Below, piece after piece: positions 23,345-63,933 of a stretch of DNA of 64,000 nt. A program made the position numbers and the translations under genes. Source of the stretch: Pseudoflavitalea sp. G-6-1-2. Its GTDB lineage: Bacteria; Bacteroidota; Bacteroidia; Chitinophagales; Chitinophagaceae. The notes beneath the pieces were generated by a model. It was not told the origin of the DNA. It saw nothing but the letters and a program-made list of their open reading frames with translations, and ran no database searches. The DNA lies in assembly GCF_012927185.1 (NCBI RefSeq), contig NZ_JABBGB010000002.1, positions 1,798,001 to 1,862,000 of the forward strand, written 5' to 3'. The first letter of the stretch is position 1. Every line of letters starts with the position of its first letter.

Positions 23345-23944
23345 TTGGATCTAACCCCACCATACAATGAACCGCTGCTGCTTCAACAGGTTGCCGAAGG
23401 AAATTCACTGGCCTTCCGACAACTGTTCGATCAGTATCAGCGCCGGGTTTACTCCTACTCATTTAAAATAACCAACTCACACGAAGTAACGGAGGACATA
23501 GTGCAGGATGTATTTCTCGAAATCTGGAATATCCGCCACCGCCTCCATGAAATTGAAAATTTCAATGCCTACCTCCACCGGATTGCACATAGCAAAGTCT
23601 ATCGCAGCCTGCAAAGAGTGGCCAGGGAAGAACTGGTGCTTCAACACCTGAAACAGCAGGGCACACCGGTGGATGAAGCCGGCAAACCCTTGCTGAGCAA
23701 AGAGATCACTCATTTTATCCAATCGTTGGTTGAACAGCTCACTCCCCGCCAACGGGAAGTATTTCTGCTGAGCCGCGAAGAAGGACTCAAATATGAAGAG
23801 ATTGCCCAGCGCATGGGCATTGGCTTCGAAACGGTGAAGTCTCATCTCGCCAATGCACTTAAATTTCTGCGTTCCGAAATCGGCAAACAATATGGTTCAC
23901 AGGCAATCGCCATTCTCATTATCTGGGAATTGACTGCTCTGTAG
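23345..23944 (+). CDS. ECF-type RNA polymerase sigma factor
   Basis: The 199-residue sigma-70 family protein has region 2 at about residues 20-90 (FRQLFDQYQRRVYSYSFKI, DIVQDVFLEIW) and region 4 at about 130-185 (LTPRQREVFLLSREEGLKYE, then EIAQRMGIGFETVKSHL). It follows the Bacteroidota FecI-like pattern and is followed by its FecR partner. The only usable start in frame is TTG; the nearest ATG is out of frame. The short hydrophobic C-terminus (AIAILIIWELTAL) is common in this subfamily. It should be held inactive by the FecR protein next door and, when released, transcribe the adjoining SusCD operon. Confidence 0.92.
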   Translation: MDLTPPYNEPLLLQQVAEGNSLAFRQLFDQYQRRVYSYSFKITNSHEVTEDIVQDVFLEIWNIRHRLHEIENFNAYLHRIAHSKVYRSLQRVAREELVLQHLKQQGTPVDEAGKPLLSKEITHFIQSLVEQLTPRQREVFLLSREEGLKYEEIAQRMGIGFETVKSHLANALKFLRSEIGKQYGSQAIAILIIWELTAL

Positions 23945-24048: not shown

Positions 24049-25206
24049 ATGAAAGAACGATTACAAGAATTGTTCGCGAAGCATTTATCCAGACAACTGA
24101 ATGCTCGGGAGCGAACTGAACTGATGGGCCTGCTGCTGGAGCCTGCTCTGCAGGATGAGGTGATGCTATTGTTACAACCCGTCTGGGAAAACAGTGGCGG
24201 AGAACATGAATTTCCGGAAGCGAAGAAAGAGCTCTTTTTCCAAAATCTGTTTGAATCAGCCGAAGATGCGCCGGTTGTTCCTATCCGCCGGAAAGGCCGT
24301 CTGCGCTGGATTGCAGCAGCATCTGTTTTATTGGTATTGATGGCGGCGCTCTACTTCACCCTGTTCAACAGACAGCAGCCACCTATTGAAATTGTACAAA
24401 CTAAGATCGACGTACCTGCTCCCAATTCCACCAACGCGCATATTCAGCTGGCTGATGGTTCTATTGTATTGCTCGACAGCCTTACTGCATTACAGCAAGG
24501 TAGCGTAGCTATTACAAAAGACAAGAATGGCCATGTAGTGTATAATGGTGAAGCAACTGAGCAGCGATACAACACATTGGTAAATCCCCGCGGCAGTAAA
24601 GTAGTGAATATCGAATTGGCAGACGGTACCAGAATCTGGCTCAACTCTGCATCTTCTGTAAAATATTTTACCAGCAACTCAGGCACATCGAGAGATGTGG
24701 AAGTTACCGGCGAAGCCTACTTCGAAGTGGCGAAGAATCCAAAACAACCATTCATCGTAAAGAAGGGTAATACCAACATCACGGTGTTAGGAACTCATTT
24801 CAACGTCAATGCCTATGACGATGAATCGGACATGAAGGTAACTCTGCTCGAAGGCAGTGTGAAAGTCGAAAATGTATTGCTGAAGCCATCAGAACAGATT
24901 GCCGTGAAAAACAGTGGTGATGCATCTTCCAGACTGTCAAAACCAACAACGGTGCAAACCGATGCAGTGGTTGCCTGGAAGAACGGATGGTTCTCTTTCA
25001 GGGATGCAAATGTAAAAACGGTGATGCGTCAGTTATCGCGCTGGTACGATATAGAAGTGGACTATTCAGGTACAATGCCTGCTAAAACTTTCACCGGAGA
25101 TATCGGTCGTTCATTAACACTCACACAAGTGTTAAAAGGAATCGCCGGCACTACCGGCATAAAATATACATTCATCAACAACAGAAAAATACTGATACAA
25201 CCATAA
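24049..25206 (+). CDS. FecR-family anti-sigma / sigma regulator
   Basis: The 385-residue inner-membrane protein has a cytoplasmic N-terminal anti-sigma segment (1-86, with RTELMGLLLEP) and one transmembrane helix at about 87-106 (WIAAASVLLVLMAALYFTLF). The periplasmic FecR domain (about 170-275) has ELADGTRIWLNSASSVKYF, EVTGEAYFEVAKN and VLGTHFNVNAY. The C-terminal DUF4974-like domain (about 315-385) has LSRWYDIEVDYSG. This C-terminal domain is expected to touch the STN domain of the SusC encoded next, passing the signal to the sigma factor. It is separated from the sigma gene by 104 bp and from susC by 125 bp, a gap that contains the antisense-facing hairpin. Confidence 0.92.
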   Translation: MKERLQELFAKHLSRQLNARERTELMGLLLEPALQDEVMLLLQPVWENSGGEHEFPEAKKELFFQNLFESAEDAPVVPIRRKGRLRWIAAASVLLVLMAALYFTLFNRQQPPIEIVQTKIDVPAPNSTNAHIQLADGSIVLLDSLTALQQGSVAITKDKNGHVVYNGEATEQRYNTLVNPRGSKVVNIELADGTRIWLNSASSVKYFTSNSGTSRDVEVTGEAYFEVAKNPKQPFIVKKGNTNITVLGTHFNVNAYDDESDMKVTLLEGSVKVENVLLKPSEQIAVKNSGDASSRLSKPTTVQTDAVVAWKNGWFSFRDANVKTVMRQLSRWYDIEVDYSGTMPAKTFTGDIGRSLTLTQVLKGIAGTTGIKYTFINNRKILIQP

Positions 25207-25226
25207 TCACAGACTGCAGGTAACAT

Positions 25227-25266
25227 AAAAAAACCGGGAGCAAAGATTGGCGTCCTGTCCCCGGTT
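25227..25266 (-). terminator. Antisense-facing intrinsic terminator in the fecR-susC gap
   Basis: Read on the minus strand, the stem AACCGGG / CCCGGTT is followed by TTTTTTT. No minus-strand gene ends here, so the T-tract would stop a transcript running antisense to the susC leader. The loop holds GGACGCCAATC; a matching hairpin with GGACGCAAATC lies in the same place in the second sigma/FecR/SusC locus. Confidence 0.6.
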
Positions 25267-25331
25267 CGATTAATGTTAACGCAAAGAGTATTTCGCAACT
25301 GCTTATTGTTAAACTTAAACCAAGTAAAGGT

Positions 25332-28300
25332 ATGCAACCAAAGCATTTCCTCCAACCCCTGCTTTTTCAAAACCATTTAAAGAGAAGGGGTCCCACCAAA
25401 ACGCTGTTAGTTATGAAATTGACCGCCATCTTTTTACTGGCATCTGTACTGCAACTCAGTGCAAAGTCAAATGCACAAACGGTTACATGGTCCGGCCACC
25501 GCGTGCCGATTGCCAAAGTACTGGAAGCCATAAAGGCACAAACCGGATATGGTTTCTTTTACAGCAACGAAGATCTTGCAATGACATCTCCGGTAACGGT
25601 TGCATTCAGAAATACGCCTGTGCGGGCCGCGCTGGAAATTACGCTTAAAGGCCAGGCGCTTGATTTTGAAATTCAGGGAACTACTGTATTCATCAGCAGA
25701 AAACCCGTTGAAGTTGCTGTTGCAGTTCCATTGAATGAGCCGGCAGCCGTGGAAATTCCCATTCCCGCTGATGAAATCAAAGGCATTGTGAGAGACCAGA
25801 AGAACGCTCCGATAGCCGGCATAACTGTTTTTGCCAAAAGAAGCGGCGCTTTGACTGTTACCGATAGTCATGGTTATTTTCTGCTGCACAATACACGCAA
25901 TGGTGATACGCTGATTTTCTCCAGCGTAAACTACGAAACCGTTACCGTGGCTGCCAGAATGGACACCTACATGAACATCATCATGAAACAAAAGGTAGAA
26001 AAACTGGAGGCCATCGTTGTATACAATACCGGCTATCAGGAATTGCGGAAAGAAAGAGCCACCGGCTCATTCGGCAAACCCGATATGGAAGTATTCACCA
26101 AACGCATCGGCACGATGGACATCATTGCCCGTCTCGAAGGACAGGTAAGCGGATTACAGGTGCAGTCGGGTGTTGGCTCCGAATCTTACAACGGAAATGG
26201 CAACGGAATCGCAACGAGAAAAAGCATCGTTCGCGGCAGCAGCAGCATTCAGCTTACTTCAGATCCGCTGTATGTTGTGAATGGTGTACCTGTTGCCGAA
26301 TACAGCGCAGTAAACCCTGATGATATCGAAAGTATCACTGTATTGAAAGATGCTACTGCAGCATCCATCTGGGGTGCAAGAGCCGCCAATGGCGTAATTG
26401 TGATCACCACCAAAAACGGCAATAAGAATCAGAAGTTATCCGTCAACTATAACGGGTTCTTCAATTTCGCCGGCAGGCCGGATTTCGGTGCAGTACGTTA
26501 TCTGAACAGCAAAGAATATATACAGACTGCCCGCGAAACCTTCGACCCGGTGGCCGTTCCATGGGAAAGCCTTACCTACAGCACTATCGCTCCTCACGAT
26601 CAGATCCTCTACGATATGCATCGCGGCATTCTATCCGATGCAGAAGGCAATCGCAAACTGGATAGTCTCGCTTCGATCGACAATTTTCCTCAGATAAGAG
26701 ACAGATTCTACCGCAACGCACTCACCACCAACCATACCCTTTCTGTTTCTGCCGGCAATCAGAACTATTCGTTTTACGGATCTTTCGGTTATACCGGTAT
26801 TCAAAGCAATCGCCCCGGTGAACGAAACGATGCATATAAACTGAACCTTAATCAGTCGATGAATTTCGGCAGCAGAGTAAAACTGCAGGTGAGCACATCA
26901 CTGGTAAATCAGATCAGCAGTGCAAAGAACGCAATAACCGTGGGTAGCGATTTCATCCCTTATCAGTTATTCACAGATGGTGATGGCAACGGACTTCCGA
27001 TGAGCTACCTCAGCGGATGGTCCGATTCGCTGAGAAACGATTACGCTTCGCGCAGCCGCATCAACCTCGATTATTATCCTGCAGAAGAAGAGAAGCTGCA
27101 AAGCTCTTACAACAATAATCTCAGCATCAATGTTACCGCCAACATCAACGTTAAACTTATCGAAGGGCTGAGTTTCAACGGAACATATGGTTATCAGAAA
27201 TCTCCCGGTACGGTGAGATATTATTCAGACAACAAATTATTCAATCAACGCAAACAACTGGTAGGACTCACCATTGCTCCTACTGTTGATGATATTCCGG
27301 AATACCTGGTGCCAACTACAGGAGGCAGATTAACATCCGGCAGCAATGACCAGCGTAACTGGACAGTGAGAAACCAGCTTATCTACGATATTGGTCTCAG
27401 AGCCGGCAGAGACCGCCTCACTTTGCAGGCCGGACAGGAAGCGAACGAAGGTCTTCAAACCCGCACCACAACTGCTGTATTCGGGTATGATGAAGTGCTG
27501 AACACAGCGCCGCAGCTCGATCTGAAGAAACTGGCAGCCGGCATTCCGGGAACAGTAACCGGTTGGGGTTCCCTCTGGATTACGCCCTATGAATTGAACG
27601 AAGCACGCACCAGATTCATTTCTTATTTCGGTCTCGCCAGTTACACCTTCAATCAGAAATACAGCATCGATGCAAGCTGGAGACAGGATATGAGCAACCA
27701 GTTTGCCAACGATATCTCCATGCAAAACAAACCGTCTTACAGCTTCGGTGCAAAATGGCAAATCGGAAGAGAATCCTTTATGGAACCCATAAGATGGATC
27801 GATGATCTCGGCCTCAGAGCAACCTACGGCATTACAGGCAATTCCCCCACTGTAGGAGCAGCCACACTGCGCGATGTAATCAGCTCTATCAGTCAAGGGC
27901 ATTTCGATGGCAGTTTCATCGGAGGAGAGGCTTTCGCCATCGACAGAATTGCCAACAAAAATCTTTCATGGGAAAGAACAGGCACCCTTAATATTGGCGC
28001 AGACTTCTCCGTCTTCGACAGAAGACTCAGCGGCTCCATAAACTATTACCACAAGAGAACCGTAGACCTGCTGGGACGTGTTCCCTTGAATCGTTTCACC
28101 GGTTTCAGTGGCACATCCGGCAACATCGGTTCATTGAGAAATCAGGGTTTCGAGTTCAATCTTCGTTCGGAGAATATCCGCCGAAAAAATTTCAGCTGGA
28201 CAACAAGTGTAACGTTTAGTCACAACCGAAACAAATTGATCGACTATGCAATCCCCGGATCCTGGGCAAATTCTGCCGAGGCAAGAATTAACGCCAGAGA

Positions 28301-28985
28301 AGTGATCGGCTACAGCCTCAATGCCCTCTGGGCCTACAAGAATGCAGGGCTCAACAATCAGGGCGACCCGCAGATTGTTCTATCAGACAAAAGCATTTCC
28401 TCAGATCCCGAAATTGCAAAACTGGAAGACGTGTATTACATGGGCGTTACCTTACCTCCTGTGTATGGCGGTATCAGCAACACATTCTCCAGCAGAGGAA
28501 TTTCACTGGCAGTAAATCTTGTCTACAATTTCGGAGCAGTGATGAGAAAAGATGTAAGCCGTTTCTATACAGACAGAATGGTAACATCCACTTCGTTCAG
28601 CGGTGCAAACTACACTACCATCTTATTGGACAGATGGAAGAAACCCGGAGACGAAGCCCACACCATCATCCCTGCCCATATCACAGATCAGGGTATTGCG
28701 TGGAGCAGAAGAAAAACCGATTACTATGAGAAATCAGATGTAAATATTGCAAAGGCAGATTATATCAAGATCAGAGATATCACTCTCTCGTATGAGCTGC
28801 CTTCAAAACTGCTTTCAACACTGAAGATCCAGCGGGCAAGCGTGTATGTGCAATCAACCAATTTTATGATCTGGAAAGCAAACAAGGAAGGTGTTGATCC
28901 TGAATTCGTAAGCTTTACCGGTGGATACAGAAGCATACCACCATCCAAACACAACTACAGCGTTGGCCTGAACCTGACATTCTGA
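25332..28985 (+). CDS. SusC/RagA TonB-linked transducer with N-terminal STN domain
   Basis: The 1217-residue protein has an unusually long n-region (about 32 residues) before the signal peptide core (MKLTAIFLLASVLQLSA). An STN (secretin/TonB short N-terminal) domain follows (about 58-118, IAKVLEAIKAQTGYGFFYSN). After a linker come a carboxypeptidase-D-like domain (about 155-225), the plug (about 240-370, LYVVNGVPVAEY, DIESITVLKDATAASIWG) and a beta-barrel ending LNLTF. The STN domain marks it as a FecA-like signal transducer that reports ligand capture to FecR. The ATG at 25332 is supported by a leader sequence also found before the other STN-SusC gene. susD follows after 24 bp. The substrate is unknown. 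Confidence 0.95.
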   Translation: MQPKHFLQPLLFQNHLKRRGPTKTLLVMKLTAIFLLASVLQLSAKSNAQTVTWSGHRVPIAKVLEAIKAQTGYGFFYSNEDLAMTSPVTVAFRNTPVRAALEITLKGQALDFEIQGTTVFISRKPVEVAVAVPLNEPAAVEIPIPADEIKGIVRDQKNAPIAGITVFAKRSGALTVTDSHGYFLLHNTRNGDTLIFSSVNYETVTVAARMDTYMNIIMKQKVEKLEAIVVYNTGYQELRKERATGSFGKPDMEVFTKRIGTMDIIARLEGQVSGLQVQSGVGSESYNGNGNGIATRKSIVRGSSSIQLTSDPLYVVNGVPVAEYSAVNPDDIESITVLKDATAASIWGARAANGVIVITTKNGNKNQKLSVNYNGFFNFAGRPDFGAVRYLNSKEYIQTARETFDPVAVPWESLTYSTIAPHDQILYDMHRGILSDAEGNRKLDSLASIDNFPQIRDRFYRNALTTNHTLSVSAGNQNYSFYGSFGYTGIQSNRPGERNDAYKLNLNQSMNFGSRVKLQVSTSLVNQISSAKNAITVGSDFIPYQLFTDGDGNGLPMSYLSGWSDSLRNDYASRSRINLDYYPAEEEKLQSSYNNNLSINVTANINVKLIEGLSFNGTYGYQKSPGTVRYYSDNKLFNQRKQLVGLTIAPTVDDIPEYLVPTTGGRLTSGSNDQRNWTVRNQLIYDIGLRAGRDRLTLQAGQEANEGLQTRTTTAVFGYDEVLNTAPQLDLKKLAAGIPGTVTGWGSLWITPYELNEARTRFISYFGLASYTFNQKYSIDASWRQDMSNQFANDISMQNKPSYSFGAKWQIGRESFMEPIRWIDDLGLRATYGITGNSPTVGAATLRDVISSISQGHFDGSFIGGEAFAIDRIANKNLSWERTGTLNIGADFSVFDRRLSGSINYYHKRTVDLLGRVPLNRFTGFSGTSGNIGSLRNQGFEFNLRSENIRRKNFSWTTSVTFSHNRNKLIDYAIPGSWANSAEARINAREVIGYSLNALWAYKNAGLNNQGDPQIVLSDKSISSDPEIAKLEDVYYMGVTLPPVYGGISNTFSSRGISLAVNLVYNFGAVMRKDVSRFYTDRMVTSTSFSGANYTTILLDRWKKPGDEAHTIIPAHITDQGIAWSRRKTDYYEKSDVNIAKADYIKIRDITLSYELPSKLLSTLKIQRASVYVQSTNFMIWKANKEGVDPEFVSFTGGYRSIPPSKHNYSVGLNLTF

Positions 28986-37819: not shown

Positions 37820-40800
37820 TTATTTCTTCATAAACCTGATCGCCTTCAGTTCACCATTTCTGTTCACAATACTGATTGTATAAGTTCCGGTGATTAATCT
37901 TGTTGCACTGATATCCTGCAAAGCTTTTGTTATTCTGCCCTGCATCACAAGCCTTCCTGCATTGTCGTAAATATTGTACAGATCACCTGCATGTACATTT
38001 TCGAGGTACAGTATTTCTCTTACAGGATTTGGATAGAGCCTGATCGGCTGATCACTGCAACCTGCCGGAGCATTGAGTCTGATGATCTTGCTGTATGTTA
38101 TGGTACCATCTCTGTCCACCATTTTCAACCGGTAGAAATTCAGCGCTGCATTGATATTGATCTGCAATTCATATTTATTTTCTCCGATGATATTTCTTGC
38201 AGGGATAATTGAAGCAGGTGCCCATGAAGTGCCATCAGTACTTTGTTCCAGTTCAAAATGAGATACACCGGATTCTTCAGCAGTTGTCCAGTAAATATGA
38301 GCAATACATTTCTCTGCTTTTGCAGTAAAGCTGATGAGCTTCAATGGCAGTGGCGATTTGGGTTCAGTGAATACGTAGAATTTACTGAAGCCGGTAATAT
38401 CGAATCCAACTTCCCATCGTTCGGCAAATGCGTTCCAGAAAGCAAACTGAGGAGTGATGGTGGTTTCAGCGCCGCCTGAAACTTTTCGTATCCTGATATT
38501 GGCATTATTGGCACTCATATCCGGATCATCTGTATCAGGAAGCGGATGCCTGATATTGGCATTCACGGTATTGTATTCTTTGAATTCAGCTTGTTTGAAA
38601 TACAGTACCATCGAAGCAGTTGCAGTGCTGCCGTTATTCTCCGGAACGATCTCATAGGAACGTTTTACATATCGGGGAAGATTAGCAGCCAGCAGCTCAA
38701 CAGCAGCAGTGGTATGGCCACCGACGGGATTGGCGCCTCTTCCGGTTATGGAAGCGATGAGGGTCTGGCAATCTGTTCCGTACCAAGTAGTGCCATCATT
38801 CAGCTGCCATGCTTTTGTGGTAGTGGTCACCATTGGCAGTGTAGCTTTATTATAATCCACTATCGCGTTGGCTTCACTGGCGCCGATATCGATTCTGCCT
38901 AATTGCACGCGGGGCGTTCCGCCGATAATTGTAAGCGGAAGATTCAATCCGGTTGTATCTGTTGTTCCGGTATTAATAGCAGGACTGCAGGCACTGAGAT
39001 TGTAATCACCATGTGTAAATGGTCTGTTGTTATTGCTCCAGCCAGGTGCAACAAATTTCACATCAAGATTGGAAGCAAGATTACCTGTTCCGCCACCACT
39101 CCAGTAAGACACAGTACTATAATTCACAGCAACAGTGGAGTTGCTGGACTTTATTCCAGTGCCATCGCCGGTAACGATGCTGTTGGTTATTTTGAGATCG
39201 CTGTCAAAATTATGAATGGTAGCAGATCCGAATTCAATGTTACCATACAAGGTGCAATTGCTAAGCTGCACAATGGAATGATTTAAATTCTGCATTGCAC
39301 CACCATAAAATTGAACAGCAATATTTCCGATAAAGAAGGAGTTGAGGATATTGACAGTTGAATTATCGTTGTACATGCCGCCGCCACCCTCACCACTGCC
39401 TGCGTTTCCGGCGATATAACAATTGATGATGGCAGGTTTTGAATTAAAATTGGAGATGGCACCACCTGCTGATGCTAAATTGCTCAGGAACCTGCAGTCG
39501 ATGATCCTGGCATTGGCATTCTGTGTATTGTGAACCGCACCACCAGCATAAACCACTTCATTCTGTTCAAACTCGCAGCGGGAAATGATGGGAGAGGATT
39601 CATTGTAGTTGGCAATAGCGCCGCCGCTCAGCCAGGCTACGCTCTGAGAGAACCTGCAATTGCTTATTTCAGGTGATGACTGATCATTGTGAATGGATCC
39701 ACCCTCATTGGAGCATGACACATCTGTAAAGTTGTTATTTCTGAGTGCGATCTTGCCGGCAAGATGATTTGTATTGTGCAGATAGATGGCGCCGGCATTG
39801 TACTGTGCGAGTGTCACACCGTTGTATACGTAGCTGTTGTTGCCGGTTGCAAATCCCTGGGTAAAAGTAAATCCATCCACTACAATACTGTCAGCGGCTG
39901 CTGAAATACCGGCGATCACCATTACGTGGTATACATTGCCCATATATCCCGCGGGACCAATATCTCCACTCAATATGGTTTTGTTCGATGTAATATTTCT
40001 CGCACCGCCACCCGAGGGATAGCCGCCGAATAATTTCAGTCCGCCATTTGATCTGATCACAAATGCGCTGTTCCTGTCGAGGCTTCCTGAAGAACCTACC
40101 GGTGTATACGTCCCTTTTGCAACCAGAATGCTGTCAATTCCGGTGCAGACTGTTGCGATACTCATGGCATCGCTCAATTCTTTTATTGCCTGCGACCAGC
40201 TGCTGCCATCACCTGATGTGCTCACAGAATTGTCTACAAAAATTTTGTTGCCACTGAAACTTTGATTGGAAATATTTACAGAAGTATTCACGGTACAACT
40301 ATTCGCATCTGTTATCAGGCAGGAATAGGTACCGGCAGACAGACCGCTGACAGAAGCTGCATTGCTTCCGTTTGACCACATGTATGAATAAGGAGCAGTG
40401 CCACCATTACCTTGTAATATCACTGATCCTGCAGTACCAGATCCGCAATAGTCATTTGTTTTTCTAATTGTCTGTACACTCAACGTAGCAGGCTCAGTAA
40501 TGGTGAATGATCTGCCGGTTGTGCATCCATTAGCATCTGTTACCTGAATATTGTAGCTGCCTGCTGTAAGTGAACTAACCGATGATCCCGAAGCAGCAGT
40601 GTTCCAACTGTAACTATATGGTGCAGTGCCGCCACTTACTGTAATAGTTGCAGCACCTGTATTGTTTCCATTGCACAAAACATTGGTCTGATCAAATGTG
40701 TGCGTCAGCGCAGCTGCTGGCTGAGTGATGACAAAGTTGATCGTAACCGAGCATCCGACCACATCTTTCACAACACAGGAGTAAGCACCTGCATGCAGAT

Positions 40801-43800
40801 CATCGATGCGGTAACTTATTTTCCCGTTGTTCCATGTGTAGCTATATGGCGCAACGCCCCCGCTCACAACAACCATTGCTGATCCTGTATTCATATTGAA
40901 ACAGTTCACGTTGATTTGATCACTGGTAGCACTCAGTGCAGATGCAGGTTGACCAACCGCCACATTCACTGTAGCTGTACAGCTATTGGCATCGGTAACT
41001 GTGCAGGAATAAGTTCCGGCAGATAAATTATTAATGGTTTGTGCCGTACTGCCATTGTTCCAGCTATAGGAATAAGGCGCTTCACCACCGCTCGCGGTTG
41101 CTGTTGCCGAACCGGTATTTCCGGCAAAGCAAATATTGTCTGTATGGGAAACTGTTGCACTCAATGCAGAGGATGGTTGAGTAATTGTAATGACTTTTAC
41201 TGAAGTACAACCCAATGCATCTGTAACGGTGCAGGTGTACACGCCTGCTGTCAGGTTTATAATGCGACGCCCTGTTGCACCATTAGACCATGCATACTGA
41301 TATGGAGCAAGGCCTCCACTCACAGCCACTTCAGCGGCGCCGGTGTTGCCATTGAAGCAACCAACAACAGTTTTGGCGGCAAGAACAGTGATGGCAGAAG
41401 CAGGTTGATTTATAATGATTGTTTTATCCGCAGTACATCCGGCAGCATCGGTAACTCTGCAGGTGTAAGTACCGGCTTTCACGTTGTTGATGGTACTACT
41501 CACAGCACCATTCGACCATAGATAATTGTATGGAGCAACGCCACCGCTTACAGTCAGCTCTGCATTTCCGGTATTGGCATTGAAGCAAATTACATTCGTA
41601 TGCGTTTCATCAACTACAAGCGCTGATGCAGGTTGAACAATGGTTACTGTTGTTGATGCCGTACATCCATTGGCATCAGTGAGGGTACAGTTGTATGTTC
41701 CGGCAGGGAGAGTATTGATGGTTTGGGTTGAACCTCCGTTACTCCAGTTATAAATGTAAGGAGCCACACCTCCATTCATAGTGGCTGTTGCAATACCGGT
41801 ATTGCCATTGTAGCAGGCGATGTTGGTATGAGTTTCTGAAGCAGTAAGTGCTGCAGCAGGTTGGGTGATCGTAATAGTTTTTACAAGCGTACATCCTGCA
41901 GCATCGGTGATGTTGCAGGTGTAAATTCCCGCGGTCAGTGATGATACTGAGGGCGCGGTGGCCCCATTGGACCAGGAATAAGAATAAGGGGCTGTTCCAT
42001 CTGCTGCGACAACCGTAGCAATACCGGTACTTCCATTATAGCACAACACATCTGTTTGGGAGGTAGCAGCAGAAAGCGCCGCTGCGGGTTGAGTAATGGT
42101 GAGGCTTTTCGTAATCACACAACCTGCGGCATCTTTAATAGTACAGGTATAGGTTCCGGCGGATAACCCGGTCAACTCTGTTGCAGTACTGCCATTGGAC
42201 CAGCTATAAACATATGGCGCTGTACCACCTGATGCAATTACTTTGGCTGTACCAGTACTCCCTCCATAACATTTGATATTGCTTTGTTCAGTAGTTGCAT
42301 CGAGAGCAGATGCCGGTTCAGTAATAGTCACTGTATTATCAACAGCACATCCATTGGCATCGATAACCATGCAGGAGTAATTTCCTGCCGGCAAATCACT
42401 GATTGTTGGAGTCTTCGCTCCATTGCTCCAGTTGTATTTGAATGGAGCCGTTCCTTTAACTACAGTAGCCATTGCACTCCCTTTATCTCCAAAACATTTG
42501 ATATTGATTGGGGTAACAGTTGCCTCAAACATGAGACAGTTAACGAAGGGACTTTCATAAGCTCCCATATCTACCGCCCCCTGTTGAAAACGGCTGGCTC
42601 CTGCAAGATCAGTACCAATGCCGGAAGGCAATAAAGCATTGTTTCCTCCGTCAATAAGCTGACTGGAATTCAGCAAATTGTAATTGCCCGCAGTATTAGG
42701 CGTATTGCCATTTGTGGGATCGTTCCTGTTGATGAATTTCGGTTCAAAAAACAGGTTGTTTCCATGATCATTGCCTGAAGCATTTTCCCATGTTCCGGTT
42801 GCAGATTCCAGCATAGAGTAGCTGAAACTGGCCGTACCACCGGAATTATTGTATATATTGGAAGGAGCAGCTGCTGCGTCCCTGTTACCATAGACAATGG
42901 AATTACGGAAGATCACATTCACTCCATTTCCACGATTAAAGGAACCGCCTGCATTCACCGCATAGTTATCTGCAATAGTTGAATTGATGAACACCGGGCT
43001 GCTGTTATCATTGAATACCCCACCACCAAACATGGCCTGGTTACCACTGATCAATACATTGATGAGCGTGGGAACGGAGCCAAAATAATTGCTCATGCCT
43101 GCGCCATTATCAGTGGATACATTTCCCTGCAATTTGCAATTGATTATATATGGTGATGATGCCAGCACAAATATCCCCGCTCCCTGTCTGGCCCTGTTGC
43201 CATGGAACCAGCAGTTTCTGATCATTATCTTTGAATGGCTGTTTGAGTTTGCTACCAGCAAACCTGCTCCGATATCACGGCTATAGGCAAGGCCATTATA
43301 CGTAGTGTTTCCTGATCCATTCCCATTGGCATTGTTGAAAACCAGGCCATCGACAACCACACTATCTGCAGCTGCATTGATACTTGCAATCACCATAATG
43401 TGATAGCTGTTATCTGTATTGCCACCGCCGCCAATATTCCCACTCAGTATGGTGGGATAATTTTCAATATCACGGGTACCGCCACCGGAAGAATACCCTC
43501 CGTATATTTTCAGATTTCCTTTTGACGGGATGATGAACGCTGCTTCTCTGTCAAGCCCTGCAGTTGGATAATAGGTTCCCTGCGCTATCATAATGGTATT
43601 GATGGCTGGGCAGGTATTCACTGCAAGAAATGCTTCGGCCAACGTTTTGACCGCTTTATTCCAGGAGCTTCCATTTCCTGATTGCGCTACGGAAGCATCC
43701 ACATAGATCACATTGGAAGTTTCACCACATGCAATGAATGTACTTTCGTATGCACCCATATCTGTTCTGCCAGCCATTACACGGGATTGACCGGATAGAT

Positions 43801-46402
43801 CAAATATGCTTAACGGAAGACTGATGATATCAGGCATGCCTGCATTAATAGCCGGACTTCCCACCTTCAATGTAAACCCGTCATCAGCAGTACCCCAGTT
43901 TCCATCACCTCCTGCCGGGTTACCTGCATTGCTGAACATTGGATCTGCATTGATATTTCCTGTACCTGCATACACGCCGCTTGCCTGCTGAACATTACTG
44001 TAGCTGATGTTCAGGGTAGCACTATTCTGTATATTATTGGCGCCATTATTCCAAAGTATCGATCCCAGTATATTTAAGTTGGAAGATCCGGAGTTGTTGA
44101 TGCCTGATACGTTTGCAGCAATGGTACAGTTCACTACTGTAACTGTTGCTTCAAGAGAAAAGATAGCCGACCCGTTTACAGCACTGTTACCGGTAATCAA
44201 AGAGCCCGATAAACGAAGATCATTTGTTTTGTAGGCAAATAAGCCGCCACCATTATTGACATCAGAATTATTTGCAATCACGCAATTGCTGATCAGTGCA
44301 GAAGACTCCATGCAGTACACGCCTGCTCCCCACTCTTTGGCACTGTTGCCGGTGATTGTACAATTACGAAGCGCCAGCTTTGTTCCGATATTGTTATTCT
44401 GCCGGAACAATACTGCACCACCTTCATTCTGATGCGTATTGATGCTGTTGTAATAAAACACATGGCCTCCATTCGCATTAGCCTTTGTGATGGTGAATCC
44501 ATCGATCACCACACTATCTGCACCGGAAGAAGTACCCGTCATTACAATGATATGATGGCTGTTGTCGCTGTTATTTCCGGAAGCACCAATGTCACCACTA
44601 AGGATCGTTGGGTTCTGCTGATAGTTTCTTGCTCCTCCTCCATTCGGGTAACCTCCATAAATTTTTATTCCACCACGTTGCGGAATGAGGAAGCTCATAT
44701 CTCTGTCTGTACCACTCTGATCACCTGTAGGAAAGTATGTACCTCTCGCTACGAGGATGGTATTTATGTTAGGGCAGGTTCTTGCACGATCCAGTGCTTC
44801 GCCGAGCGTTCTGAATGCTGTGCTCCAGCTGCCGCCCTCGCCTGATGCAGGTTTCGAGCCATCAACATACAGGGTGGTGCTTCCGCAGAAAACAGTATGC
44901 ACACTTTCATAAGCACCGATATCCACCACATTGCCTTGTATGCGTTGCGCCCCTGTTATATCTGAAGTGAGATCAGCAGGCACTTCGGCATTGCTTCCCA
45001 TGTTAATGGCAGGACTTATAGCCTGCAGTCTCAATCCATCATCCGAATTTCCTATGATATTATCCGCACCATCAGCATCGGAGGGATTTATGAATTGCGG
45101 ATCAAGCGTCATATCCACATTATTGGAAAATGTGAATTTGACAATACTGCCTGAATTGGGGGTCATGCTCTGTATCAGACTGTTTATCACTTTCCCCCAG
45201 TTATTGTATAGATCCAGTCCGCTGCTGTTACCTGCAATGATAGAGTTGCGGATAACCAGATTATCCGGAACATTGGGCGGAATGAGCTCCGAGCTTTCAA
45301 TAGCACCACCTCTGATGGTTGCTGTATTGCTGGTAATGGTGCAGTTGAGTATACCATAAGCAGAACGCAGGCCTCTCAATGCACCTCCGTACTCTGCACT
45401 ATTTCCATAGAAAAGACAGTTGATCAGATCAGCGCCTGAACTTTCACTGTTGATAGCTCCGCCCTGTGCTGTACTGTTGCCATCAAAAATGCAGTATTTG
45501 AATGAGGGTATCCCATTGGTGTAATTATGAACAGCTCCACCGGAAAATGAGGCAGTATTTCCTGAAAACCTGGTATTGATAAATTGAGGATTGGAAGCAT
45601 TGTTATAAACAGCCCCTCCCACATAGGCATTATTGCCATTGAACCTGCAATTGGTGAGTACAGGAGTGGAGCGATTATTGAACATTCCTCCTCCTCCGGA
45701 AAACTGATTTCCATGCCCAACCCTGTTATTATTGAATTCACAGTTGGTGATAACAGCAGTGGAAAACACACCGCCAATACCACCTCCGTTACCTATATTT
45801 TCAGCGCCGGCAAGGTTATTGGAGAAAATACAATCGATGATCGCAGGGCTGGATATATGGTTGTACATCCCTCCTCCATCTGAATCTGCTTTATTGCCTG
45901 TAAAAATACAGTTGCGAACAGTGGGTGATGCATTTTCATTATACATACCACCACCATTGCCGCTGGTGTATCCGTTATAGAGAGTAAACCCATCGAGTAC
46001 AGCAGCAGCAGTTAAACCATTATTGATATTCTGAAATACTCTGTTGAACATGGGACCGCCCATGATGCGGGTGTTACCGATGAGACGGCTCGTATTGGCA
46101 GTATAATTTCTGGCCGCCATGCCGGGATTGCCGGTGTTGGGAAATCCGCCATAAAGCTTCACTCCCTCTTTCATTACCAACGGCACATTACTGGCTGTTT
46201 GATAATCACCCGCAGCCACCCACACTTCATCACCGGCATTACTGGCATTGATCATTGCCTGAAAATTGCCGGAGGCGTTTGCCCAGCTGCTTCCATCTCC
46301 TGCAGCTCCTGATTTTATATAACGGATTGTTTGTGACTGAAGGGTTACAGTCAGTCCAACAAGCAGTGCAGTAATGAGTAGTCTGTGGAATATCTTTTCC
46401 AT
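37820..46402 (-). CDS. Giant T9SS adhesin: four beta-helix modules, ten SprB repeats
   Basis: The 2860-residue secreted protein has a signal peptide at 1-24. Three beta-helix modules follow (about 26-500, 500-888, 890-1285), each opening with a GSSW-x-x-A motif and A-x-GTY/DYQ, built of repeated N-C-I/GN rungs and closing with GAYES (choice-of-anchor-Q type). Ten SprB repeats span 1299-2051, and a fourth beta-helix (about 2055-2510) closes with GASEA. The tail has an Ig-like region, FHELEQSTDG-like FN3 features and a type A sorting domain (from about 2785, PIRLYPNPVREILY). Family knowledge: SprB repeats occur in the mobile gliding adhesin SprB, and the beta-helix modules are common in surface proteins. 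A surface adhesin exported by the type IX system is therefore likely. A Crp/Fnr gene lies just upstream. Confidence 0.93.
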   Translation of the reverse strand: MEKIFHRLLITALLVGLTVTLQSQTIRYIKSGAAGDGSSWANASGNFQAMINASNAGDEVWVAAGDYQTASNVPLVMKEGVKLYGGFPNTGNPGMAARNYTANTSRLIGNTRIMGGPMFNRVFQNINNGLTAAAVLDGFTLYNGYTSGNGGGMYNENASPTVRNCIFTGNKADSDGGGMYNHISSPAIIDCIFSNNLAGAENIGNGGGIGGVFSTAVITNCEFNNNRVGHGNQFSGGGGMFNNRSTPVLTNCRFNGNNAYVGGAVYNNASNPQFINTRFSGNTASFSGGAVHNYTNGIPSFKYCIFDGNSTAQGGAINSESSGADLINCLFYGNSAEYGGALRGLRSAYGILNCTITSNTATIRGGAIESSELIPPNVPDNLVIRNSIIAGNSSGLDLYNNWGKVINSLIQSMTPNSGSIVKFTFSNNVDMTLDPQFINPSDADGADNIIGNSDDGLRLQAISPAINMGSNAEVPADLTSDITGAQRIQGNVVDIGAYESVHTVFCGSTTLYVDGSKPASGEGGSWSTAFRTLGEALDRARTCPNINTILVARGTYFPTGDQSGTDRDMSFLIPQRGGIKIYGGYPNGGGARNYQQNPTILSGDIGASGNNSDNSHHIIVMTGTSSGADSVVIDGFTITKANANGGHVFYYNSINTHQNEGGAVLFRQNNNIGTKLALRNCTITGNSAKEWGAGVYCMESSALISNCVIANNSDVNNGGGLFAYKTNDLRLSGSLITGNSAVNGSAIFSLEATVTVVNCTIAANVSGINNSGSSNLNILGSILWNNGANNIQNSATLNISYSNVQQASGVYAGTGNINADPMFSNAGNPAGGDGNWGTADDGFTLKVGSPAINAGMPDIISLPLSIFDLSGQSRVMAGRTDMGAYESTFIACGETSNVIYVDASVAQSGNGSSWNKAVKTLAEAFLAVNTCPAINTIMIAQGTYYPTAGLDREAAFIIPSKGNLKIYGGYSSGGGTRDIENYPTILSGNIGGGGNTDNSYHIMVIASINAAADSVVVDGLVFNNANGNGSGNTTYNGLAYSRDIGAGLLVANSNSHSKIMIRNCWFHGNRARQGAGIFVLASSPYIINCKLQGNVSTDNGAGMSNYFGSVPTLINVLISGNQAMFGGGVFNDNSSPVFINSTIADNYAVNAGGSFNRGNGVNVIFRNSIVYGNRDAAAAPSNIYNNSGGTASFSYSMLESATGTWENASGNDHGNNLFFEPKFINRNDPTNGNTPNTAGNYNLLNSSQLIDGGNNALLPSGIGTDLAGASRFQQGAVDMGAYESPFVNCLMFEATVTPINIKCFGDKGSAMATVVKGTAPFKYNWSNGAKTPTISDLPAGNYSCMVIDANGCAVDNTVTITEPASALDATTEQSNIKCYGGSTGTAKVIASGGTAPYVYSWSNGSTATELTGLSAGTYTCTIKDAAGCVITKSLTITQPAAALSAATSQTDVLCYNGSTGIATVVAADGTAPYSYSWSNGATAPSVSSLTAGIYTCNITDAAGCTLVKTITITQPAAALTASETHTNIACYNGNTGIATATMNGGVAPYIYNWSNGGSTQTINTLPAGTYNCTLTDANGCTASTTVTIVQPASALVVDETHTNVICFNANTGNAELTVSGGVAPYNYLWSNGAVSSTINNVKAGTYTCRVTDAAGCTADKTIIINQPASAITVLAAKTVVGCFNGNTGAAEVAVSGGLAPYQYAWSNGATGRRIINLTAGVYTCTVTDALGCTSVKVITITQPSSALSATVSHTDNICFAGNTGSATATASGGEAPYSYSWNNGSTAQTINNLSAGTYSCTVTDANSCTATVNVAVGQPASALSATSDQINVNCFNMNTGSAMVVVSGGVAPYSYTWNNGKISYRIDDLHAGAYSCVVKDVVGCSVTINFVITQPAAALTHTFDQTNVLCNGNNTGAATITVSGGTAPYSYSWNTAASGSSVSSLTAGSYNIQVTDANGCTTGRSFTITEPATLSVQTIRKTNDYCGSGTAGSVILQGNGGTAPYSYMWSNGSNAASVSGLSAGTYSCLITDANSCTVNTSVNISNQSFSGNKIFVDNSVSTSGDGSSWSQAIKELSDAMSIATVCTGIDSILVAKGTYTPVGSSGSLDRNSAFVIRSNGGLKLFGGYPSGGGARNITSNKTILSGDIGPAGYMGNVYHVMVIAGISAAADSIVVDGFTFTQGFATGNNSYVYNGVTLAQYNAGAIYLHNTNHLAGKIALRNNNFTDVSCSNEGGSIHNDQSSPEISNCRFSQSVAWLSGGAIANYNESSPIISRCEFEQNEVVYAGGAVHNTQNANARIIDCRFLSNLASAGGAISNFNSKPAIINCYIAGNAGSGEGGGGMYNDNSTVNILNSFFIGNIAVQFYGGAMQNLNHSIVQLSNCTLYGNIEFGSATIHNFDSDLKITNSIVTGDGTGIKSSNSTVAVNYSTVSYWSGGGTGNLASNLDVKFVAPGWSNNNRPFTHGDYNLSACSPAINTGTTDTTGLNLPLTIIGGTPRVQLGRIDIGASEANAIVDYNKATLPMVTTTTKAWQLNDGTTWYGTDCQTLIASITGRGANPVGGHTTAAVELLAANLPRYVKRSYEIVPENNGSTATASMVLYFKQAEFKEYNTVNANIRHPLPDTDDPDMSANNANIRIRKVSGGAETTITPQFAFWNAFAERWEVGFDITGFSKFYVFTEPKSPLPLKLISFTAKAEKCIAHIYWTTAEESGVSHFELEQSTDGTSWAPASIIPARNIIGENKYELQININAALNFYRLKMVDRDGTITYSKIIRLNAPAGCSDQPIRLYPNPVREILYLENVHAGDLYNIYDNAGRLVMQGRITKALQDISATRLITGTYTISIVNRNGELKAIRFMKK
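40250..42508 (-). repeat. Array of ten SprB protein repeats
   Basis: Ten consecutive units of about 76 residues (228 bp) follow the pattern C[FY]-x-x-x-TG-A, GG-APY-Y-WSNG, L-AGTYTC-V-DA-GC, TITQPA. Each has a pair of cysteines that could form a disulfide. Units 9 and 10 are the most diverged: unit 9 lacks the second tyrosine-cysteine, and unit 10 has an altered start. Confidence 0.9.
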
Positions 46403-54514: not shown

Positions 54515-57500
54515 TTATAAAGTGACATCAATTCCGAACGCAATAACTCTTGGAATAGGAACAGTAGAATTCTGAACCCCACTCTCGATACCGAGTTCTG
54601 GGTCGGCAACTTTCAGCGATTTGTTCTTGATCATAAAGAGATTCTGGAATGATGTATAGATGCGAACAGCAGGGATACCGGCTCTCTTCAGCAATTTCTC
54701 ATCGAACTGATATGCAACGGTGAGGTTTCTGAGACGCACATAAGATGCATCGAACAGATAATGAGTAGATGGTCTGCTGTTCCAGTCGGATGCCTGACCT
54801 TGCCCATGCGGTCCAACAATGGCGCGGGGATAATAGCTCTTATCGCCCGGCGCTCTCCATCTGTCGTTTGCATATTGAGGCTTGTTGGACATCACACCTG
54901 AAAAATCATCGATTCCAAAAATCCGGCTGTACTGATCTTCCAGATTATACACTTTGTTGCCTGCACTGAAAGTGAAGTTGGCAGAAAGAGAGAAGCCTTT
55001 CCAGTTTGCTCCGAGATTGAAACCACCAGCCAGTTTGGGTTGCGCTACTTGTACATACTCCTGATCTGCTGTGGTAATTTGTCCGTCTTTATTTTTATCC
55101 TCATATATCAGATCGCCAGTATTGGGATCAACACCGAGTGATCTGTACAACAACAATGAACCTACAGAATGCCCGGTTTTGGTATATCCCATCGGGCCAC
55201 CAGGCCAGTACATTCCATATCCCATTACCGAGTCTCTCAGATAAAGGATTTTGTTTTTGTTGATGTTCAGTGCCACGCCTGCATTCCAGGTGAAGTTGCC
55301 GGAACCGGAAGGTTTGCTGCGATAATTCAATTCGAGATCGATACCTCTGTTGCGCACCGTTCCGAGGTTACCTTTTTGAGATGCAAAGCCACCGGAAGAT
55401 GTGGGGATGCGCAATGTTGTAAGAAGATCGTCGGTTCTTTTTTCGTAGAACTCCAGTGTCATAGAGACTCTGTTGTTGAAGAATCTCGCTTCAATGCCCG
55501 CATCGAACTGTTTGGTTCTTTCCCAATTCAGATCACGGTTACCACGCACGTTGTTCAGCACCAGTGTTGGCCTTCCCAGATAACTGCCGGTGTTCACCAG
55601 ATCTGCGTAATCGAAATATCCGAGCGTTCTGATATTTCCCGTGAGACCGATACCCGATTTAAGTTTGAGGAAAGAAATGATATTGTTCTTAGTGAAGAAG
55701 GCTTCATCAGAAACAATCCATCCGGCCGACAATGCAGGGAACCATGAGTACCTGTTTTTGGAAACCAGTTTGGAAGTTCCATCGCGACGAATGCTGGCGC
55801 TCAGCAGATATTTATTATCCCAGCTCAAGTTCGAACGGAAGAAATAAGATTCACCTGCTTCGCCGTAAGTGCGGTTGTTGAACTGTTCAGCATTGAAAGG
55901 TTGTGAACCATTACCTGGATTCCAAAGTCCTTCGCTGGAAGGGAAACCGATGATGGAAAATCCGGTATTGGTGAGTTTGTTCTCGTAGTATTCCTGTCCC
56001 AGCAACAGATCGCCACGCAGGCCGCTTACTGCAAGCTGATAGGTAAGGGTATTGTTGAAAGTGTATTGAATGCCACTTCCTCCCCTGTTGTTATACTGCC
56101 CTTTATTGTACTGCCCCCATGAAGAGAAGGGACTGTAGAACAATGTGCTGCTGCTCTGGCTGTTCACACCTGCCAGTGTAGATTTGAAAGTAAGCCCTGG
56201 CATGATGGTGATTTCACCGAAGGCATTGCCGAGGTAATTCCAGTTCTTCGATCTTCCGTAGGTCTGGTATTCGCTTGCGAGCGGATGTGTATCCATTTCG
56301 ATCCAGTATCCGAGGGTTCCATCTGCATTGAATGGAATGGAATCCGGCATATCCGGACGTGCATTGAGAGCGTTGGTCAGCGGAGAAGTGAGGTCTTTGG
56401 TTTCAGTGAGTGATACACTGATATCACCGCCGATCCTGAACCATTTGTTCACACGCTGTGTAAGCGCCAGTTTTGCTGAGTATCTGTTGAAGAATCCGCG
56501 GCCAATAGAATTCTCTTCGGAGAATTTTCCGAATGAGAAGTAATAAGTATTGCTGGCATTACCACCAGAAACACTGGCCTGAATATTTTTTGTAGCCGCG
56601 TTTTTATTGGTTACTTTTTTCACCCAGTCCTGATCGAATACACCAAGTGATGTACCCAGTTTGAATGCGCCGATCTCATACTCCAGCTGATCTTTTTCTT
56701 CAACAAGCATATCGATCCTATCCTGAGGCAGACCAGGTGTAGCAAGGAGTTTATCGATATCTGCTACTCTGTTGTTACGGGCTTCCTTGAAGGTGCTCTC
56801 ATACTGCTGGTTGTTCATGGACCTGTAACCGAGGGTTGAGTTGGTGAGGCCGTAATAAGTGCTCAGGTTTACAACAGGTCTGGTGTTGGCCTTTCCTTTT
56901 TTTGTTGTGATGAGAATTACGCCCTGAGCGCCTCTTGCTCCATACATGGCAGAGGAGGAAGCGTCTTTCAGTACTTCAATAGATTCAATGTCCTGCGGAT
57001 TGATATTGCTGAATCTAAAGTTAGGAGCGTTCGATCCGCCTACACCAGAACCAGCGTCTACGATCAGTCCATCGATCACAATCAGCGGATTGATATTTCC
57101 ACTGCTGAGGGTTTGAACACCGCGGATGCTGAAGCTGGGCTCAGAACCCGGCGATCCGTCGAAGCCACGAACCTGCAGACCAGCTACGCGGCCCTGCAGT
57201 GCATTGAATACATTTCCGGTGATATTTTCTTCGGCTTTCAGTTCGCCTACTTTGGCAATGGAGCCGGTTACATTTCTTTTGCTTTGTGTTCCGTATCCCA
57301 CCACTACTGTCTGATCGAGATTGGCAACAGCAACTTTGAGGTAAACGGGATAGTTGGTGGCAGCGCTTACTTTCACTTCCTGTGAAATATATCCCACGGA
57401 GCTGATCACGAGGGTTTGTCCGGCATCGGCCGCGATTACGAAATTACCCTGCGCATCGGTGGTGGTGCCTTGCGTGGTTCCTTTCACTGCAACATTTACG

Positions 57501-57982
57501 CCTTCGAGCGGCAGCTTCTTTTCTTCGGAAAACACGCGGCCTGTTATCAGTGCAGCCTCTGCAAAAACGGGCAGACTGATGGCAGGTTTTCTGGTAACCG
57601 CAATTACATTGTCGATGAATGAATAACGAAGGTTCTGTCCCCGGAAACAGATGTCCAGCGCCTGTTTCAGCGGCAGATTCCTGATGTCCACTGTAACGGC
57701 AGACGCTTCTTCGATGAGATTCTTTTCCCAGATGAATTCAATTCCGGTTTGGATACGGATCTTTTCAAAGACCTGTTTCATCGGAATGTCTTTACCGGAG
57801 AGCGTTACGGACTGGGCTTTGCCGCTTCCGTATGCGTGCGTTAAAGAGATAATAAGCAGTGCGCAAATCATTTTCATGATCAAAATCGTTTTGGTGAGCC
57901 TGTGTTTCCATGGATTGCTCCACTTCACACTTCCCCCGATGCACCTTTCGGGCATAGGGGATCCCATAAGCATAAAATGCAT
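54515..57982 (-). CDS. SusC/RagA TonB-linked transducer with N-terminal STN domain
   Basis: The 1155-residue protein has a long basic n-region (about 35 residues) before the signal core (MKMICALLIISLTHAYGSG). An STN domain (about 65-130, MKQVFEKIRIQTGIEFIWEK) and a carboxypeptidase-D-like domain (about 140-220) follow. A TonB-box-like TVVVGYG, the plug (about 225-355, LIVIDGLIVDAG, DIESIEVLKDASSSAMYG) and a beta-barrel complete it. With FecR and sigma genes directly upstream it should act as a FecA-like signal transducer. The ATG at 57982 is supported by the leader shared with the other STN-SusC gene. It precedes susD by 18 bp. Confidence 0.95.
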   Translation of the reverse strand: MHFMLMGSPMPERCIGGSVKWSNPWKHRLTKTILIMKMICALLIISLTHAYGSGKAQSVTLSGKDIPMKQVFEKIRIQTGIEFIWEKNLIEEASAVTVDIRNLPLKQALDICFRGQNLRYSFIDNVIAVTRKPAISLPVFAEAALITGRVFSEEKKLPLEGVNVAVKGTTQGTTTDAQGNFVIAADAGQTLVISSVGYISQEVKVSAATNYPVYLKVAVANLDQTVVVGYGTQSKRNVTGSIAKVGELKAEENITGNVFNALQGRVAGLQVRGFDGSPGSEPSFSIRGVQTLSSGNINPLIVIDGLIVDAGSGVGGSNAPNFRFSNINPQDIESIEVLKDASSSAMYGARGAQGVILITTKKGKANTRPVVNLSTYYGLTNSTLGYRSMNNQQYESTFKEARNNRVADIDKLLATPGLPQDRIDMLVEEKDQLEYEIGAFKLGTSLGVFDQDWVKKVTNKNAATKNIQASVSGGNASNTYYFSFGKFSEENSIGRGFFNRYSAKLALTQRVNKWFRIGGDISVSLTETKDLTSPLTNALNARPDMPDSIPFNADGTLGYWIEMDTHPLASEYQTYGRSKNWNYLGNAFGEITIMPGLTFKSTLAGVNSQSSSTLFYSPFSSWGQYNKGQYNNRGGSGIQYTFNNTLTYQLAVSGLRGDLLLGQEYYENKLTNTGFSIIGFPSSEGLWNPGNGSQPFNAEQFNNRTYGEAGESYFFRSNLSWDNKYLLSASIRRDGTSKLVSKNRYSWFPALSAGWIVSDEAFFTKNNIISFLKLKSGIGLTGNIRTLGYFDYADLVNTGSYLGRPTLVLNNVRGNRDLNWERTKQFDAGIEARFFNNRVSMTLEFYEKRTDDLLTTLRIPTSSGGFASQKGNLGTVRNRGIDLELNYRSKPSGSGNFTWNAGVALNINKNKILYLRDSVMGYGMYWPGGPMGYTKTGHSVGSLLLYRSLGVDPNTGDLIYEDKNKDGQITTADQEYVQVAQPKLAGGFNLGANWKGFSLSANFTFSAGNKVYNLEDQYSRIFGIDDFSGVMSNKPQYANDRWRAPGDKSYYPRAIVGPHGQGQASDWNSRPSTHYLFDASYVRLRNLTVAYQFDEKLLKRAGIPAVRIYTSFQNLFMIKNKSLKVADPELGIESGVQNSTVPIPRVIAFGIDVTL

Positions 57983-58002
57983 AACTTTATTTGCGTTTAG
58001 GT

Positions 58003-58046
58003 TAATAAAAACTATACGGTCCGGCTCTCAATTCGTTCCGTACAGT
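58003..58046 (-). terminator. Sense-strand terminator-like hairpin in the susC leader
   Basis: In the gene sense, the stem ACTGTACGG / CCGTATAGT (one G-U pair) with an 18 nt loop is followed by TTTTTATT, ending about 20 nt before the susC start codon. It could limit readthrough from the sigma/FecR genes or act as an attenuator. Confidence 0.5.
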
Positions 58047-58072
58047 GGGTGACAAACTCATTAGCCTTGCAG

Positions 58073-58105
58073 AACCGCCCGGACGCAAATCCGGTGCGGT
58101 TTTTT
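58073..58105 (+). terminator. Antisense-facing intrinsic terminator in the fecR-susC gap (second locus)
   Basis: On the plus strand the stem AACCGC-CCGGA / TCCGG-GCGGTT (small bulge) is followed by TTTTT. All neighbouring genes are on the minus strand, so it would end an antisense transcript. The GGACGCAAATC sequence in its loop matches the hairpin at 25227 with one difference. Confidence 0.65.
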
Positions 58106-63820: not shown

Positions 63821-63933
63821 TATATCTTTATTGCCAAGGAAATGGTGTCTTCCTATTTAACCGTTCTTCCCGGAACTGATGGCGCCTACAAATACTACAT
63901 GGCGTTTACAGCCATCACTAAAACATTTGTAGG

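Follow-up and report, generated by a model that had tools for sequence, protein, structure and literature searches.

Two loci of Pseudoflavitalea sp. G-6-1-2, each coding for an ECF sigma factor, a FecR-type anti-sigma protein and a TonB-dependent receptor, carry in the gap between fecR and susC an inverted repeat directly preceded by a run of A in the gene sense. This raises the question of whether the repeat terminates a transcript running against the receptor gene, and, if so, what that transcript might do. The two loci, here A and B, lie in a stretch of 64,000 nucleotides (the window), whose numbering is used throughout. Pfam searches bear out the flanking gene calls of the earlier note on this DNA, with ECF sigma, FecR, Plug-domain receptor and SusD present at both loci:

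23345-23944, plus strand: ECF sigma factor gene of locus A (Pfam Sigma70_r2 and r4_2)
24049-25206, plus strand: fecR (anti-sigma) of locus A (Pfam FecR and FecR_C)
25332-28985, plus strand: susC of locus A, a Plug-domain TonB-dependent receptor (Pfam)
54515-57982, minus strand: susC of locus B (Pfam Plug domain)
58115-59317, minus strand: fecR of locus B (Pfam FecR)
59354-59956, minus strand: ECF sigma factor gene of locus B (Sigma70_r2 and r4_2 above the Pfam cut-off)

The STN domain scores above the Pfam cut-off in B, at 39.5 bits, and narrowly below it in A (28.0 against 28.4), and the two receptors share only 27% identity. Elsewhere the window holds a fluoride riboswitch (63829-63895, plus strand; Rfam RF01734, E 2.6e-10) and a single open frame of 2860 residues (37820-46402, minus strand).

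In both fecR-susC gaps the hairpin and its adjoining A-run have the sequences and positions that had been claimed for them:

25232-25266, minus strand: terminator hairpin of the putative antisense RNA of locus A (sequence; own-genome gap scan; match to covariance model R1, E 0.018)
25232-25238 and 25260-25266: stem of locus A, AACCGGG paired with CCCGGTT
25227-25233, minus strand: T-tract of the antisense terminator of locus A, an A-run in the gene sense (sequence)
25245-25255, minus strand: conserved loop region of locus A, GATTGGCGTCC in the gene sense (sequence)
58073-58101, plus strand: terminator hairpin of the putative antisense RNA of locus B (sequence; own-genome gap scan)
58100-58105, plus strand: T-tract of the antisense terminator of locus B (sequence)

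The loop of locus B, whose genes lie on the minus strand, reads GATTTGCGTCC in the gene sense. Among the window's co-directional gaps measuring 40-600 nt, 13 in all, the two fecR-susC gaps are the only ones with an antisense hairpin and T-tract. No protein gene end is visible on the hairpin strand of either, and a transcript stopping there should therefore be non-coding. Locus B additionally has a second, weaker hairpin followed by a T-run in the sense direction (58011-58046, minus-strand sense, -11.6 kcal/mol), which lies in the stretch separating the antisense terminator from the start of susC.

The same arrangement recurs throughout the genome. All 70 loci with FecR matches were taken in, and an antisense hairpin of -11 kcal/mol or better and less than 40 nt, together with a T-tract, is present in 29 of the 41 fecR-to-receptor gaps of 80-220 nt (three loci without an adjacent receptor, L025, L055 and L064, being excluded), as against 3 of 41 on the sense strand. 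Dinucleotide shuffles of these gaps, over 20 rounds, gave 0-2 antisense and 0-1 sense cases. Loci A and B are members of an own-genome set of about thirty. The cut-off of -11 kcal/mol was also used for the window gaps, the relatives' regions, the box association and the RNA lengths given below, while -8 kcal/mol was used in the scan that shows the hairpins of locus B and -9 kcal/mol for the 28 class-level loci and the four-genome gap count.

Cleaner evidence for conservation than rows matched by a covariance model comes from related genomes, in which 75 regions preceding homologues of the locus A receptor were picked by receptor similarity alone (own-genome L071, L086 and L098 and contig-end L075 and L100 being left out): an antisense hairpin is present in 48 and a sense one in 4. 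At the strict cut the hairpin is absent from 12 of the 41 own gaps and 27 of the 75 relatives' regions. Four genomes of three other families of the class (G204, G244, G211 and G236), picked for their many FecR genes, show it in 20 of 29 gaps of at least 60 nt, with 2 of 29 on the sense strand, at the looser cut and with no shuffle control; of the 40 loci taken, nine have gaps shorter than 60 nt and two are without a downstream ORF. Among 28 further class-level loci, representing the best FecR matches of many genomes (own-genome L176 and L203 left out), many gaps are very short and any antisense hairpin is seen in only seven, three of these (L180, L189 and L199) outside any clear gap. An A-run with a hairpin is discernible by eye in loci of Pedobacter sp. 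BMA, Flavobacterium sp. ENC and Chitinophaga costaii. Some class-level fecR-receptor loci (L205, L210, L216, L217, L235, L239 and L243) also share a short recurrent motif, GCCTATG(NNN)TAA/TAG, which lies on the upstream side of the antisense hairpin and in some cases amounts to a start codon with a stop codon right behind it. The original observation of antisense hairpins is confirmed and reaches far beyond the two loci: the feature is genuine, selected, widespread and of a known kind.

We propose, with a probability of roughly 0.7, that these hairpins are the terminators of antisense RNAs resembling DonS of polysaccharide utilisation loci (PULs), widespread in Bacteroidia. Each would be the intrinsic terminator of a short antisense RNA of about 70-150 nt, whose production we infer from the DNA.

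The stems vary in sequence in a compensated way. The covariance model R1 was made from 22 own-genome hairpins; alignment A1 has 28 rows (hairpins L040, L019, L016, L034 and L007 being excluded), and alignment A2 has 22, six rows of A1, including locus B (L045), having been dropped as misaligned. Locus A scores only E 0.018 despite being a training row, and locus B has no R1 match at E up to 1. The own genome yields 29 matches at E up to 0.2; as 19 of them belong to the training rows, specificity within this genome rests on 10 matches only. The best three of these are in fecR-receptor gaps (L252, E 1.3e-6; L262, 1.8e-4; L268, 0.0044) and the next seven (E 0.008-0.2) are not; six of the seven lie 13-32 nt past the stop of a same-strand ORF, i.e. 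at ordinary gene ends, and are placed as terminators should be.

Across the family, R1 has a match at E up to 0.001 in 43 of 147 genomes, own genome counted. The best match was examined in 20 of the 42 others: 19 precede a receptor, and 18 have FecR upstream, at about 0.6 kb in L169, about 1.5 kb in L164 and less than 300 nt in the other 16. One match (L168 in G123, E 6e-5) has neither FecR nor a receptor beside it. At E up to 0.05 the model detects the Chitinophaga costaii locus and not those of Pedobacter sp. BMA and Flavobacterium sp. ENC. R1 offers a way to look for such loci where a genome has no RNA-seq, and misses divergent members such as locus B.

The earlier note had suggested a covariance-model check on homologous fecR-susC gaps, and this yields compensated stem changes: among the 47 rows that R1 matches and that had no part in its training, pairing holds in 94.7% of cells as against 66.9% in shuffles, and two-sided changes affect 9 of 10 stem pairs as against 6.2 in shuffles, with the qualification that these rows were selected by R1, which favours pairing. 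They were drawn from 88 sources, 10 of which are class-level loci included for showing hairpins, and two rows are not antisense members (L145, a sense-strand terminator, and one strand of L131). A previous count was circular, its rows having been chosen as hairpins. These changes bear on whether a regulator might use the inverted repeat as a DNA operator, something which its palindromic form and its position just upstream of the presumed susC promoter might indicate: the arms of an operator should be kept, whereas these change with compensation, and the strand-biased A-run would play no part in it. We regard an operator as very improbable.

An antisense RNA of the DonS type would be expected to have a promoter of its own on the antisense strand. 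TAnnTTTG is given as the housekeeping -7 box of Bacteroidetes in the available text of the sources (PMC7366714, PMC9723704), and in many hairpin loci the receptor start reads CAAAnnTATG, which is this box on the antisense strand. The window loci have candidates with one mismatch, in both cases TTTA for TTTG, from which, together with the terminators, the following are predicted:

25325-25332, minus strand: candidate antisense -7 box TACCTTTA of locus A, one mismatch to TAnnTTTG, overlapping the susC ATG
57982-57989, plus strand: candidate antisense -7 box TAACTTTA of locus B, one mismatch to TAnnTTTG, overlapping the susC ATG
25227-25320, minus strand: predicted antisense RNA of locus A, about 94 nt (ends estimated from box and terminator positions)
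57994-58105, plus strand: predicted antisense RNA of locus B, about 112 nt (ends estimated likewise)

The box and the hairpin co-occur. Among the 136 of 140 loci with a usable start, the exact CAAAnnTATG is at the first start codon in 27 of 85 with a hairpin as against 2 of 51 without one. An in-frame box with at most one mismatch accompanies 26 of 40 own loci with a hairpin as against 1 of 25 without (Fisher p 4e-7), and 31 of 48 as against 5 of 27 in the relatives (p 2e-4), p-values inflated by the common ancestry of receptor subfamilies; hairpin and box may co-travel by common descent of one such subfamily. The own-genome comparison covers 65 loci, L041 and L070 being dropped besides the three without an adjacent receptor, and its search extended 330 nt into the receptor frames, so that its 40 positives include some chance hairpins. 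Since the surroundings of the translation start that the box overlaps are also conserved, part of the signal may reflect selection on translation. Inspection by eye brings out no -33 element.

That CAAAnnTATG is merely a sense promoter rather than a start codon was rejected, all 36 sites being in frame with the receptor; of the TATGCA sites 30-130 nt past the hairpin, 47 of 50 are likewise in frame. Many hairpin-bearing receptors, including that of locus A (25332-25400), have an N-terminal extension, often of some 15-50 residues, which precedes an inner start-like M(K/R)LT signal peptide.

With the RNA start placed 5 nt beyond the box, the predicted RNAs have a median length of 96 nt, and those of 50 of 57 loci fall within 78-128 nt. 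Compared with 200 shuffles each, the predicted RNA of locus A has an only slightly more stable fold (z -1.78, matched in stability by 14), that of locus B a far more stable one (z -4.09, matched by none). The earlier note had placed the RNA over the susC ribosome-binding region, a placement that the box does not bear out and that calls for correction: since the best antisense box overlaps the start codon itself, the predicted 5' end falls some 12 nt before the ATG. The RNA start probably lies immediately upstream of that region, not over it.

A simpler account would have the hairpin act only as an insulator, blocking stray antisense transcription that comes from the susC coding region before it enters fecR and the sigma gene, with no discrete regulatory RNA. 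Two points suit this account: the terminator by itself is the best-shown feature, and an in-frame box is absent, even when one mismatch is allowed, from 14 of the 40 hairpin loci in the own genome and from 17 of the 48 in relatives. The fairly fixed distance between box and hairpin where both occur (median 65 nt, 60 pairs) argues against it, as do loops longer than those of other terminators, which mere termination does not need; we consider it rather unlikely.

On the preferred reading of discrete antisense RNAs, the region that they would cross is itself patterned. Between hairpin and start codon, inspection by eye of 57 loci finds two semi-conserved words, GTTCGGGTTAACCC and, about 16 nt later, GTCnCGnnAAGACTGCTTATT, and hexamers such as GTTCGG with one mismatch are enriched (27 of 57 regions as against 8.1 in shuffles). 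We infer that the two words are the ECF-dependent susC promoter and the transcript start, which would make them a candidate promoter of this family for ECF sigma factors linked to FecR. The corresponding part of locus A (25268-25320) fits the pattern poorly.

These parts suggest a mechanism. From its promoter at the susC start codon, TAnnTTTG read antisense and overlapping the ATG, the antisense RNA would be made in the direction leading away from susC. It would traverse the leader together with the presumed susC promoter, which would depend on the ECF sigma factor, and stop just short of the fecR end. The susC gene would thereby be held down while the cognate ECF sigma factor is inactive, both by polymerase traffic over its promoter and by pairing of the antisense RNA with the susC mRNA along the approximately 30 nt of leader that the two transcripts have in common, and the terminator would keep antisense transcription from entering fecR and the sigma gene. 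As the RNA would cross the whole sense promoter and overlap the leader by only about 30 nt, transcriptional interference with leader pairing is favoured over cover of the ribosome-binding site. The anatomy thus offers a testable mechanism: a start-codon promoter box, a transcript across the sense promoter and a stop before fecR.

The loop had drawn particular attention for its 11 bases, 10 of which agree between A and B. The agreement holds, although the outer GA/TC bases pair, leaving an unpaired loop of 6 nt in both (CGCCAA and CGCAAA in the antisense reading of A and B, respectively). It is not due to chance: GATT(G/T)GCGTCC with a flanking stem occurs at four places in 147 family genomes (A, B, G005 and G132), and a scrambled 11-base loop in a hairpin context at none. 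The exact loop is also present in G003 (L080) and, twice within one gap, in Chitinophaga costaii. Its four family matches rule it out as a general feature, and it is the mark of a small subfamily. Given the 27% identity of the two receptors, the loop has either outlasted much receptor divergence or been swapped between loci.

The broader claim of a conserved loop on a changing stem survives in that the stems are compensated and the loop is unusual, and is narrowed in that the exact 11-base form is limited to this subfamily. Loops of 6-7 nt are found in 63 of 88 gap hairpins; for other terminators in this genome the figure is 7 of 41, the latter taken at a stricter energy (-13 rather than -11 kcal/mol). 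A [C/G]CA[A/G] core is present in 27 of 88 as against 4 of 41, which is weaker evidence than loop length because longer loops hold any four-base word more often and the controls are of stricter energy. YUNR is a U-turn loop motif, and it is found in 17 of 57 sense-strand loops, a bare count with no control set.

One might speculate that the loop is a recognition element common to all, with a single RNA-binding protein or RNA partner reading some thirty antisense RNAs and keeping 6-7 nt loops with the recurrent core on diverging stems. We hold this to be doubtful; if true, the RNAs would form a coordinated class across Bacteroidia, ranking nutrient receptors.

Pairing of the loop with the susC leader was tried and rejected, the mean best match over 57 loci being no higher than permutation gives (88 of 500 permutations reach or exceed it); locus B has an 8-base complement between the two. 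In L153 (Chitinophaga costaii) and L246 (G132) the gap holds a second hairpin copy with the same GCAAAGATTGGCGTCCT loop and no A-run. In L246 this copy lies about 180 nt downstream, and the first copy has behind it a leader of its own with an ORF of 12 codons, which gives the look of a duplication of the entire leader unit.

The failure of loop-leader pairing also weighs against a role of the hairpin in sense RNA, whether it protects or processes the sigma-fecR mRNA at its 3' end or belongs to the leader of an mRNA that reads through from fecR into susC. Such a role could draw on the ability of the hairpin to form on either strand, on the second copies in L153 and L246, which keep stem and loop without the A-run, and on the further sense hairpin with T-run of locus B. 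Yet the A-run is on the side that gives an antisense T-tract, and sense terminators are rare (3 of 41 own gaps), making this role improbable. With an antisense RNA remaining our preferred reading, the interpretation of the earlier note is, as a whole, partly supported: the terminator sequence and the antisense position between fecR and susC bear out its antisense terminator in a DonS-like setting.

Antisense RNAs of the DonS type repress some receptor genes of this sort in gut Bacteroides. They typically end in an intrinsic terminator, and such a terminator is present at the predicted RNA end in both A and B. DonS of B. fragilis is one of a family of cis-antisense RNAs of 78-128 nt, divergent to susC homologues (PMC7366714), and PUL-associated antisense RNAs in B. 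thetaiotaomicron numbered 10 and later 32, some anti-correlating with their susC (PMC10994844); the mechanism of repression by DonS is stated to be unknown (PMC11697453; available text of all three). The likeness lies in an antisense element between a regulator and a susC homologue and divergent to the latter, as in A and B, and in the predicted lengths (94 in A, 112 in B, median 96 nt) compared with the published 78-128 nt. It is one of layout and predicted length, the elements described here being predicted from sequence. The DonS family belongs to Bacteroides, whereas these elements are found in the family of the window and other families of the class; their shared covarying terminator and start-codon promoter are not mentioned for the DonS family in the available text. 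The candidate boxes are like the Bacteroidetes -7 box in their frequent antisense match at the receptor start and differ in overlapping the start codon.

The FopS/GibS family of Bacteroides, described as multicopy RNAs with a 5' single-stranded part and an intrinsic terminator, 4 of 14 members being antisense (PMC11697453, available text), resembles the present elements in copy number, terminator and the antisense position of some members. Ten loci, including B, give no match to the Rfam model of FopS at E up to 1, nor does the window at its gathering score, and no Rfam family matches the 10 loci save a chance miRNA at E 0.34. In the parts of the open-access literature covered by our searches, no description was found of the breadth, the covarying terminator or the start-codon box. 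The DonS-type layout is here a many-copy feature of ECF/FecR receptor loci, both in the family of the window and in other families.
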